Positions 8,717-33,988 of a stretch of 33,988 nt of DNA are shown here, piece by piece; the first letter of the stretch is position 1, and each line of letters starts with the position of its first letter. The translations under genes were made by a program, and so were the position numbers. Source of the stretch: Gammaproteobacteria bacterium (GTDB lineage: Bacteria > Pseudomonadota > Gammaproteobacteria > QNFE01); contig QNFE01000018.1 in assembly GCA_003645455.1 (NCBI GenBank), forward strand, positions 1 to 33,988, read 5' to 3'. The notes below the pieces were generated by a model. That model made no database searches, was not told the DNA's origin, and saw nothing but the letters and a program-made list of their open reading frames with translations.

Positions 8717-10021
8717 ATGCTTGACATAAAATTAGTTCGCCAAAATCCGCAAAACATAAAAGATAAACTTTTAAAAAAGAAGTTTGTGTTCTCCGTGTAT
8801 GACTTTAAAAATTTAGAACAGCAACGCAAACAATTACAAATTGAAACTCAAAATTTACAAAATGAAAAAAATAAATCTGCTAAATCAATAGGCAAAGCTA
8901 AACAACAAGGAGAAGATATTCAACCATTGTTAAAAGAAGTGGAGCACTTAAAAACACAGCTTACCAACAACGAAAATGAACTTAGCATTATTTTGAAAAA
9001 ATTACATAATTTGTTGTCAGCTGTGCCTAATATCCCAGCGGAAGATGTGCCAATAGGTGATGACGAAAATAATAATGTAGAAATTAAAAAGTGGGGCAAT
9101 ATTCCAAAATTTGATTTTAAACCCAAAGAGCACAGCGAGATAGCAACAGATGAAAATATGGATTTTGCCACCGCAGCTGCCATTTCATCCAGCAGATTTG
9201 TTATTTTAAAAAATGAAATTGCTAAGCTCCATCGGGTTTTAATCCAATTTATGATTGATGCTCATACTGATAATAATTATACCGAGCTTTATGTGCCGTA
9301 TATTGTAAATAGCAAAAGCCTCTATGGCACTGGTAATTTACCAAAATTTGCTGATGATTTGTTTAAAATAAAAAGTGATAAAGAAAATGATTTTTATCTT
9401 ATTCCCACCGCCGAGGTGCCAGTTACGAATATCTATGCTAACAAAATAATAAAAGATAGTGATTTACCACTAAAAATGGTTTGTCATACCCCTTGTTTTC
9501 GTTCCGAGGCAGGGTCATATGGTAAAGATACCAGCGGAATTATCCGCCAACATCAATTTGAAAAAGTAGAATTAGTGCAACTATCTACCCCTGATAACTC
9601 CGATGAGGAATTAGAAAATTTAACCCAAAATGCGATGAATATTTTAGAAAAATTAAATTTACCATATAGACAGGTTATTTTATGTGGGGCAGATTTAGGA
9701 TTTTCATCTAAAAAAACCTATGATCTTGAGGTTTGGATGCCATCGCAAAATACATATCGTGAAATATCATCTTGTTCTAATTTTGGTGATTTTCAAGCTC
9801 GCAGGATGATGGCAAGATTTAAAAATGAAAATGGAAATATTGAATATGTGCACACCTTAAATGGATCAGCTTTGGCAGTGGGCCGAACTCTTGCTGCTAT
9901 CATCGAAAACTATCAACAGCAAGATGGCAGTATAAAAATTCCAAAGGTTTTACAAAAGTATTTTAAAAATAACAAAAATAATGAAATTATTACAAATCCA
10001 TCCTCAAAATCCGCAAAATAG
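8717..10021 (+). CDS. serS: Seryl-tRNA synthetase
   Basis: SerS charges tRNA-Ser, and tRNA-Sec where present. The N-terminus MLDIKLVRQNP leads into the two-helix coiled-coil arm (about residues 30-100) that grips the long variable arm of tRNA-Ser. The class II core contains the motif 2 region (FRSEAGSYGKDTSGIIRQHQFEKVE, around residue 265-290) and motif 3 (LNGSALAVGRTLAAIIEN, near 385-402). ISSCSNFGDFQARR is also characteristic. The 434-residue length is standard. Its last 41 bases also encode the start of yciO. Confidence 0.98.
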   Translation: MLDIKLVRQNPQNIKDKLLKKKFVFSVYDFKNLEQQRKQLQIETQNLQNEKNKSAKSIGKAKQQGEDIQPLLKEVEHLKTQLTNNENELSIILKKLHNLLSAVPNIPAEDVPIGDDENNNVEIKKWGNIPKFDFKPKEHSEIATDENMDFATAAAISSSRFVILKNEIAKLHRVLIQFMIDAHTDNNYTELYVPYIVNSKSLYGTGNLPKFADDLFKIKSDKENDFYLIPTAEVPVTNIYANKIIKDSDLPLKMVCHTPCFRSEAGSYGKDTSGIIRQHQFEKVELVQLSTPDNSDEELENLTQNAMNILEKLNLPYRQVILCGADLGFSSKKTYDLEVWMPSQNTYREISSCSNFGDFQARRMMARFKNENGNIEYVHTLNGSALAVGRTLAAIIENYQQQDGSIKIPKVLQKYFKNNKNNEIITNPSSKSAK

Positions 10022-10592
10022 ACTCATAGAGCAGGCAGCGGATGCCATCAACCGTGGAGCAGTCGCTGTTATCCCCACAGATTCCTGTTATGCGCTCGCT
10101 TGTCATTTGGATGATAAATCTTCAGTTGATAAAATTCGTGCCATCCGCCAAAGTGATAAAAACCATAAATTTACTCTAATCTGTGAGGATTTATCCCAAA
10201 TTTCAGAATTTGCCAAGGTGGACAATGAAAGTTTTAGAATTTTAAAAAATAATACCCCAGGAGCATTTACTTTTATTTTAAAAGCCACAGGCGAAGTCCC
10301 CAAACGACTTATGCACCCCAAACGCAAACACATCGGAATCCGTGTGCCAAATAACAACATAATCCAAGCACTATTACATAAATTAGATGCGCCCTTGATG
10401 AGTTGTTCTTTTATTTTGCCAGACACAGATAGGACAATTGATGATATTGATAGTCTGCCACCTATCTATCAACCAAAAATAGATCTGATAATTGATGGTG
10501 GAATATGCCAAAAACAACCATCCACAGTTGTGCATCTGGAAAACAACGAAGTGCAAATCAGTCGCCATGGACTATCTAAATTAATTGTTTAA
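9981..10592 (+). CDS. yciO: YciO/YrdC/Sua5-family protein
   Basis: The family binds RNA and ATP; TsaC/Sua5 members make threonylcarbamoyl-AMP for the t6A modification of tRNA. The role of YciO itself is less settled. The match to YciO-type proteins runs from the first residues: IHPQNPQNRLIEQA, then AVIPTDSCYALACHL, KIRAIRQ, NNTPGAFTFILKAT, KRKHIGIRVPNN and DLIIDGG. This supports the ATG at 9981 even though it lies 41 bp inside serS, since no later in-frame ATG would preserve the IHPQNPQ segment. The long overlap implies translational coupling with serS. It is distinct enough from TsaC that another tsaC is expected elsewhere. Confidence 0.9.
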   Translation: MKLLQIHPQNPQNRLIEQAADAINRGAVAVIPTDSCYALACHLDDKSSVDKIRAIRQSDKNHKFTLICEDLSQISEFAKVDNESFRILKNNTPGAFTFILKATGEVPKRLMHPKRKHIGIRVPNNNIIQALLHKLDAPLMSCSFILPDTDRTIDDIDSLPPIYQPKIDLIIDGGICQKQPSTVVHLENNEVQISRHGLSKLIV

Positions 10593-10605
10593 TTCCAAAA
10601 TAAAT

Positions 10606-10621
10606 ATTATGCAAAGGTCTC
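10606..10621 (+). repeat. Copy of the dispersed attatgcaaaggtctc motif
   Basis: A 16-bp copy that ends 17 bp before the -35 box of the rnfB promoter and 74 bp before the rnfB ATG. The ttga found just 5' of the motif in the copies at 14427 and 16040 is absent here. Confidence 0.7.
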
Positions 10622-10638
10622 TATAAAAAATTAAAAAA

Positions 10639-10667
10639 TTGATAATTAATTTTGACTGGTGTATAAT
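10639..10667 (+). promoter_or_regulatory. Sigma-70-type promoter of rnfBCDG
   Basis: ttgata (10639-10644) and tataat (10662-10667) are exactly 17 bp apart. The predicted transcript would start about 20 bp before the rnfB ATG. No obvious ribosome-binding site follows. Confidence 0.75.
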
Positions 10668-10694
10668 TACCTATTTTGTTAAAATAATAATTTT

Positions 10695-11237
10695 ATGTTG
10701 GTAGCAATCGCCACGATTAGCCTATTGTCCCTATTGTTTGGGGTGATATTAGGCTGGTCGGCAATTTACTTTAAAGTCTCTGGTAACCCTATGATTGATA
10801 AGGTTGAAGAATTATTGCCGCAAACTCAATGTGGCCAATGCTCTCACCCTGGTTGCAGACCATATGCCACTGCCATAGTAGAAGATGGTTTTGCTATCAA
10901 CCAATGCCCCCCTGGAGGTCAGGAAACTGTTGTGGCTATTGCCGATTTATTAGGGGTTGAAGTGCAAGATGTAGCAGAGGGTAGCGACGATAGTGAAAAA
11001 GTTGCCATCATAATTGAAAAAGAATGTATAGGTTGCACTTTATGTATTCAAGCTTGCCCTGTTGATGCAATTTTGGGATCTGCCAAACATATGCATGTTG
11101 TGATTGAAAGCGAATGCACTGGATGCAAATTGTGTCTCCCTCCCTGTCCTGTTGATTGCATCATAATGAAACCTCCCATAAATATTGATAGTTTTTATCA
11201 AGCCCCATACCCTGTTGAGGTAAGATTAAATGCCTGA
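10695..11237 (+). CDS. rnfB: Rnf complex iron-sulfur subunit B
   Basis: RnfB passes electrons between ferredoxin and the membrane part of Rnf. It has one N-terminal membrane anchor (residues 2-27). A four-cysteine site for a 4Fe-4S cluster follows (C46, C49, C54, C71, in [14 protein letters not shown] and NQCPPGG). Two classical ferredoxin motifs come next (C111/114/117 with C121, and C141/144/147 with C151). At 180 residues it is of the usual gammaproteobacterial RsxB size. It opens the rnfBCDG run. rnfA, which normally precedes rnfB, is replaced here by yciO. Confidence 0.97.
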
Positions 11238-32190: not shown

Positions 32191-33175
32191 ATGAAAGACA
32201 AAATCATCAACAATATAATCAAACTTTTTATTGTTATTTTTTTGCCAACTTTATTGTTTGCTTGCGGCGGTGGTGGCGGAGGCGGTAGTAGCAGTAGCAA
32301 CACACCAACCCCAACAGAGAATAGACCAATTTTATCAGACACGACAAGTTTTTTTACCACTTGGAATATCAATGATATAACCGATGACAACCAAATCACA
32401 ATAAAAACAAGTGCAAGGTTATACTTACGATTATGAAATTGACTGGGGCGATGGCACAATAACCCATAACAACACAGATAATGCTAACCATACATACGAC
32501 TCTGCTGGTTTATATACGGTAAAAATAAGTGGCACATTCCCAGGGATAAATTCGTGTTTAGATGTTTCAAAAGTATGTCAATCAAACTACAAACATGATA
32601 ATAAAATAATTTCTGTTGAGCAATGGGGCAATCAAAAGTGGCAAACTTTCAAGTATGCTTTTGCTCGTAAATGGGATGTTGATAGTGAAGAAGATTTAAA
32701 AATCAATGCCATAGATCAGCCAGATTTATCAGAGGTTGAGGATATAAGCCGAGCATTCGCTCGTGTTGTTAATTTTAATGGTGATGTAAGCCAATGGGAT
32801 GTATCTAATGTAACTGATATAAGCCAAATGTTTAGTTATGCAAAACATTTTAACCAAGATATATCAGGCTGGGACACCTCTAATGTAACCAATATGGCAG
32901 ATGTATTTTATGGAGCTGATTCTTTTAATCAAGATATATCAAAATGGAATCTCTCTAATGTTATTTTTACAAAACTTATGTTTTATCGTGCAAAAGCATT
33001 TAACCAAGATATATCAGACTGGGATACCTCTAATGTAACTAATATGGAGAATATGTTTCGTGAAGCTGAATCTTTTAATCAAGATTTGTCAGGATGGAAT
33101 GTTGATAAGGTAACAAAACATGCTGATTTTATGAAAGATGCTGGCAGTAGCAGCATACCACCTGATTTTCCATAG
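32191..33175 (+). pseudogene. Frameshifted surface lipoprotein with PKD-like domain and BspA/DUF285 repeats
   Basis: The first frame (32191-32436) gives a lipoprotein signal ending in LLFAC, followed by a Gly7-Ser4 linker and a Thr/Pro-rich segment, then stops after ITIKTSARLYLRL. The second frame (from about 32411, +1 relative) resumes with GYTYDYEIDWGDGT, a PKD-type strand. It then carries about five ~25-residue repeats of the form FNQDISxWDTSNVTNMxxMF (DUF285/BspA-like), ending at 33175. The whole would be about 328 residues. One surplus base near 32401-32416 explains the shift; dropping one A from the A5 run at 32403-32407 would join the frames. This could be a real mutation, slippage-based variation, or a sequencing error. 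Such proteins are surface-exposed and often adhesive. Confidence 0.88.
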
Positions 33176-33243
33176 TTTAAAACTTAAATAAACCATGGCA
33201 AATAAAGTAGTAATTTTTAATTTAATTTTTTAGGAGAAATATT

Positions 33244-33819
33244 ATGACAGTAAAACAAGATGGGGAATTTGTATTATCTTTGGTAAAAGACTTTTTCAAA
33301 CAAAAAGATATTGTTGAAAAATTAAAATTATTTAACAATCTAAAAGAAGAAGATGACAGGATACGTGGTTGGGAAACTTGGTGGCAGGTTGAGTTTGCTC
33401 TTTATTTAGATAGACATAAAAAAGTGGCAGAATGGGGCAGAGAGTGTTCTTATGACTGCGACAAAAGAAAAACTGATAAAAATAGTGCAACCATTGATTT
33501 TTGGCTTAGAAAAAAAAATTGTGATACATCATCTTTTATTGGTATAGAGTTTAAGCAGGCTTGGAGTTTTAGCAAAACTATAAGAGAGATGTTAAATGAT
33601 ATTGATAAAATATGTGCTATACGAGACTCCGATGATGATTTGCGTTCATTGTGGAATGTTGGTGTTTACCTTAAAGATATTCAACATAAGACTAAAAATT
33701 TAAGCAATAAAGAAAAAATAGATTACTTAAAAGACAATAGCGGTGAGTATGAGCTGACAGAATCATGCATTGATTTATTTGACATTAAAGGCACTGAGTT
33801 TAAGGTAGTATTTTTTTAA
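33244..33819 (+). CDS. Unrecognised protein with a PD-(D/E)XK nuclease-like residue pattern
   Basis: I do not recognise a named family for these 191 residues. The start is well supported by taggagaaat a few bases before the ATG. An N-terminal helical part contains WETWWQVEFALYL, with E50. It is followed by ATIDFWL (D85) and IGIEFKQAW (E102, K104). D-x16-E-x-K after a helix glutamate is the active-site layout of PD-(D/E)XK nucleases, with the E-x-K on a predicted beta strand. The rest has no signal peptide or membrane segment. No methyltransferase or other partner follows before the window edge. It could be a nuclease of a mobile or defence system, or an inactive relative. The fold is inference. 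Confidence 0.75.
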   Translation: MTVKQDGEFVLSLVKDFFKQKDIVEKLKLFNNLKEEDDRIRGWETWWQVEFALYLDRHKKVAEWGRECSYDCDKRKTDKNSATIDFWLRKKNCDTSSFIGIEFKQAWSFSKTIREMLNDIDKICAIRDSDDDLRSLWNVGVYLKDIQHKTKNLSNKEKIDYLKDNSGEYELTESCIDLFDIKGTEFKVVFF

Positions 33820-33850
33820 ATAAAATACAACAACAATTAAAAAATAAAAT

Positions 33851-33907
33851 CCCAGTCATTGCGAGAAAAAACCCAGTCATTGCGAGCGAGCCTGCGAGCG
33901 TGGCAAT
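33851..33907. repeat. Dispersed-type repeat agtcattgcgag, two copies
   Basis: cccagtcattgcgag occurs at 33851-33865 and again at 33872-33886. The second copy continues as gcgagcctgcgagcgtggca, whose attgc and gcaat ends (33879-33883, 33903-33907) form a palindrome. Elements of the form gtcattgcgagcga...tggcaat are widespread intergenic repeats in unrelated bacteria (from memory). The remaining bases to the window end hold nothing recognised. Confidence 0.7.
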
Positions 33908-33988
33908 CTCTGATTAGTTTACGGATAATTTTCAAGAGATAACCACGGCGGTTTATTGTTCTGCACTACATCTTTATTTTCGTCCTCC

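Follow-up and report, generated by a model that had tools for sequence, protein, structure and literature searches.

The window, by which we mean the whole stretch of DNA that was analysed (33,988 nucleotides), is an entire contig and ends at position 33988. Near that end, on the forward strand, lies a single open reading frame (33244-33819) whose translation is a protein of 191 amino acids, closed by a TAA stop codon at 33817-33819. The ribosome-binding site AGGAG (33232-33236, forward strand; read from the sequence) is located 7 nt before the ATG, in line with the strong start signal noticed in the earlier sequence-only reading. The GC content by codon position is 0.39/0.28/0.25, which agrees with 0.40/0.29/0.25 for argS of the same window; therefore, the stretch is coding. 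It is a real gene, of which the genome has no second copy. Scanning its surroundings for promoters gave nothing better than shuffled sequences.

Upstream, an XRE-type regulator similar to phage repressors (31572-31964, reverse strand; best PHROG match at E 3.6e-11) lies 1.3 kb from the gene under study on the other strand, with one gene between them. At 32191-33175 (forward strand) is a gene for a lipoprotein-like product that includes a PKD-like stretch and DUF285/PARCEL repeats; a frameshift near 32411-32436 splits the gene, whose signal-peptide and repeat parts are in different frames. Downstream, about the last 130 bases (33850-33988) are part of an interspersed repeat, for which the genome contains 52 matches. 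The contig stops inside this repeat, probably because of it; the DNA fold of its first part is no better than that of shuffles.

Relatives of the window protein

The protein had been described as an orphan, and direct searches of phages and plasmids, and of viral and genome contigs, indeed give no match for it. Weak matches at E 0.03-0.09 were rejected as noise; the two of them that were read (L005 and L008) contained no convincing relative. The orphan status is nevertheless only apparent. A whole-genome search in 399 genomes of the phylum gave a first homologue at E 1e-10; a search with this homologue identified 13 carriers in its enterobacterial family, for which 295 genomes were covered, and a search with a ten-member alignment reached 43 genomic and 53 viral contigs. 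The iterated searches thus provide 92 distinct matching open reading frames, some of them fragments, or about 90 distinct relatives. Their spread is patchy and includes Pseudomonadota, Nitrospira, Campylobacterota and a metagenome-assembled genome of Deinococcales.

The statement that the protein belongs to no named family holds for the libraries searched. The window protein has no family match in Pfam, NCBIfam, PADLOC or PDB, no match among the system models of PADLOC-DB 2.0.0, and only weak ones in PHROGs (e.g., an HNH endonuclease at E 0.043). The family members gave nothing convincing in Pfam, NCBIfam, PHROGs, PADLOC or PDB; in PADLOC-DB 2.0.0, two of ten members had a weak match (0.003-0.02) to an “orphan methyltransferase”. 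A search of the open-licence literature with broad terms found no description of the family. What is new is therefore an unnamed family inside the known PD-(D/E)XK superfamily, one that appears neither in the family libraries nor in the defence databases that were searched.

Predicted fold and active site

The sequence-only reading proposed that E50, D85, E102 and K104 are arranged as in PD-(D/E)XK nucleases; the translation has all four at the positions given. A structure model from the single sequence was useless (pLDDT 35), and solved structures searched by sequence or profile returned designed proteins or nothing. The AlphaFold2 model built with a 61-sequence alignment has a pLDDT of 90.8 and a pTM of 0.88. 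Its elements are, in order, a helix (43-57), three strands (61-72, 81-90 and 97-105), a helix (109-124) and a strand (132-143); this alpha-beta-beta-beta-alpha-beta core is the PD-(D/E)XK order. The model places E50 on helix 1, D85 on strand 2, and E102 and K104 on strand 3, so that the core and the proposed arrangement of the residues are both present in it.

In a Foldseek comparison of the model with PDB, the leading matches include MGME1, Can2, Cdn1, AddAB, Cas4, EcoRV and cap-snatching endonucleases; nearly all assignable ones are nucleases of the PD-(D/E)XK superfamily. Their scores are weak (best E-value 0.009, TM-scores near 0.3), and the fold assignment consequently rests on the topology, the consistency of the matches and the residues. 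The comparison with the viral models of BFVD gave phage PD-(D/E)XK proteins (best E 3.3e-5); three matches are below E 0.001, namely, two named PD-(D/E)XK nucleases and one exonuclease.

Conservation was assessed in 62 family representatives less than 90% identical to each other, with a mean column identity of about 35% in the family alignment. The predicted metal-binding aspartate D85 (33496-33498, forward strand; strand 81-90) is found in all 62. In the E102-F-K104 motif of core strand 3 (33547-33555, forward strand), which forms the E-x-K, the glutamate is present in 61 of 62 and the lysine in 62 of 62. Both D119 and K122 of the D119-x-x-K122 motif on core helix 2 (33598-33609, forward strand) are invariant (62/62 each), as is E67, and E50 is found in 61 representatives. 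Core helix 1 (residues 43-57 by DSSP of the model; 33370-33414, forward strand) carries the signature W43-E44-x-W46-x-Q48-x-E50, in which W43, E44, W46 and Q48 occur in all 62. These four positions were part of the search seed: the collection scan was seeded with the stretch around residues 40-48, so the conservation of W43-Q48 is circular and by itself proves nothing. E50 is just outside the seed; D85, E102, K104, D119 and K122 are well outside it and independent of the search pattern.

The family thus has both the core order of the superfamily and, on neighbouring strands of that core, a D and a (D/E)-x-K that are conserved. Judging from the model and the conservation, the nuclease fold and the active site are close to certain, and the nuclease interpretation of the earlier reader is supported on both points that could have refuted it. 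The core topology, the helix glutamate, the D on strand 2 and the E-x-K on strand 3 are shared with the superfamily, whereas the W-E-x-W-x-Q-x-E on helix 1, the R-E after it and the D-x-x-K on helix 2 are the family's own. Separately, the enterobacterial members L012, L013 and L014 have a cysteine-rich C-terminal tail (CDCGDDxxCxC-like), possibly metal-binding, which the window protein lacks.

Below the Pfam threshold, the family matched by the most members is PF08722 (TnsA-like endonuclease N-terminal), with 9 of 61 and a best E of 0.0022; its curated cut-off is 26.5 bits, and the first member tried reached 18. A profile comparison with TnsA-like proteins brings the catalytic residues into register (pairwise E 0.0046). 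Tn7 TnsA has Q-x-K where the present family has E-x-K. Among the neighbour families listed, no recurrent cluster of Tn7-type genes (TnsB, TnsC) accompanies the family. As far as sequence comparison can tell, the resemblance is superfamily kinship rather than membership.

Settings of the family genes

Of the 53 proviral loci, 45 have the large terminase gene nearby on the other strand; with two exceptions among these 45, it lies within about 440-750 bp. As for the other eight, L119 and L129 have the small-terminase cluster alone, in L094, L107 and L115 the sequence on the terminase side is short or missing, and L084, L123 and L124 have no terminase there. The neighbouring terminases fall into two groups that BLAST does not connect, and the tree of the family splits its proviral members into two distinct clades with good support; hence, the position beside the terminase was reached at least twice. 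The nuclease gene is transcribed away from the terminase genes, against the late operon.

The contents of this position can be compared in three sister prophages. The copy in E. coli AREA_C483 is the RefSeq “hypothetical protein” WP_109536602.1, which lies beside the small terminase gene and is followed by a DUF3800 gene. Sister E. coli prophages with a related terminase (L178, 2068-3888, and L179, 1721-3541) have in the same slot beside terS, in the same orientation, the OLD-type ATP-dependent nuclease WP_073508409.1, an AAA/TOPRIM-like protein of 606 aa unrelated in sequence to the family. Another sister E. coli prophage carries a small hypothetical protein in the slot, again in the same orientation. 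The small slot protein of E. coli NMBU-W10C18 does not belong to the family. The phage-immunity family Tai of lambdoid prophages, which blocks tail assembly, is likewise a prophage cargo, found in phages mostly upstream of the packaging module (PMC11364771); this likeness concerns position alone. Considering that the sister prophages carry different genes there and that Tai has such a location, the simplest reading of the terminase-side slot is that of an exchange site, and of our gene that of exchangeable cargo.

Chromosomal copies are solitary and occur at many scattered, dissimilar sites, most of them adjoining housekeeping genes. One such site in Acinetobacter follows what we take to be acnD; another, in Pasteurellaceae, is between genes that are presumably pgl and gnd, and one enterobacterium has the copy between the presumed yccX and rlmI (all five names are our reading of the sequences). 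Two diverged family copies, L082 and L083, face each other in Aliivibrio (about 8955-11180).

Some neighbours are related to defence: SIR2 and HerA directly downstream of the family gene in L058, a CBASS cyclase two genes away in L078, a WYL regulator immediately ahead of one of the copies in the pair L082/L083, and a YhcG-type candidate defence gene nearby in L051. This handful of loci, counted without a matched background, is at most suggestive of defence. XRE regulators are near only two relatives (both in Xenorhabdus), and their association as a family trait was rejected. The mobile-element or defence setting assumed earlier is supported by the loci of the homologues more than by the window itself, and the proximity of a phage-type regulator, which had been part of that argument, is incidental.

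In the clustering of neighbour genes, in the first 25 families of their Pfam tally and in the portion of the gene lists that was read, no partner such as a cognate methyltransferase recurs beside the family; a classical restriction-modification system is therefore unlikely.

Proposed role and its alternatives

We believe, with some confidence, that the gene encodes a solitary nuclease, which travels as exchangeable cargo and serves in defence or in competition between phages. The product would be a single-domain metal-dependent enzyme with the chemistry of its superfamily: D85 and E102 would bind Mg2+, K104 would activate the attacking water, and two further glutamates, E50 of helix 1 and E67 of strand 1, would contribute to the site. 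D119 and K122, for which we infer a supporting role, would complete it. In proviruses the gene occupies a variable slot and, as it is transcribed away from the terminase and against the late operon, could be expressed in the lysogen. We presume that the enzyme destroys the nucleic acid of incoming or competing phages. Since no recurrent partner such as a methyltransferase is seen among the neighbours listed, recognition may be expected to depend on the form of the DNA or on an infection-specific state.

The fixed place beside the terminase could also reflect a packaging-related role. It is tempting to propose a single-gene phage-exclusion nuclease that senses a packaging- or terminase-related state of the DNA and so distinguishes self from non-self without a methyltransferase. 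Such sensing would explain the repeated placement beside unrelated terminase genes; we regard this narrower proposal as rather doubtful.

The broader reading, a nuclease carried as exchangeable cargo, is of interest, as an uncatalogued and widely spread nuclease family enlarges the pool of cargo genes in prophages and chromosomes. Should it give protection from phages, it would be a compact system of one gene, for which E. coli already offers a representative (WP_109536602.1).

A free-standing homing endonuclease would cut cognate sites, either next to terminase genes or in chromosomes, and spread by repair with no gain to the carrier. PD-(D/E)XK homing enzymes are known, and the family has much of what such an element would show: a mobile, solitary unit of one gene, the fixed place beside the terminase in 45 of 53 proviral loci, and several broken copies (L046, L080, L081 and L111, with frameshifts or stops), although broken copies are common for cargo genes as well. 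However, two dissimilar kinds of terminase and dissimilar chromosomal sites offer no common target, the slot of sister prophages is filled by non-homologous genes, as in a cargo slot, and the adjacency to SIR2-HerA and a CBASS cyclase also speaks against homing. We consider this explanation unlikely.

Protection might come from suicide rather than from cutting the DNA of the invader, the nuclease being toxin-like and degrading host nucleic acid, perhaps RNA, once triggered. The Foldseek matches to the CRISPR ancillary nucleases Can2 and Cdn1 and to the RNA-cutting cap-snatching endonucleases are compatible with abortive infection, as are the SIR2-HerA and CBASS parts among the neighbours; yet the protein has no sensor domain and no consistent adjacent sensor gene, and we give this version little credence.

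If the product were a phage nuclease with a part in packaging the DNA or maturing it at cos, it would naturally be found next to the terminase, and beside terS is indeed where most proviral copies are. Such a function is hardly compatible with transcription against the late operon, with absence from sister phages that have a related terminase, or with the many chromosomal copies outside phages; moreover, three different queries gave no match in 50,697 phage records. This possibility is accordingly a poor one.

Finally, it is very improbable that we are dealing with a housekeeping protein, or an inactive relative, that lacks any nuclease role: such a protein could account for the replacement of E102 by G in L077 (Actinobacillus) and of E50 by K in the proviral L136, but the distribution is patchy and the active-site residues are otherwise invariant at the low mean column identity given above.
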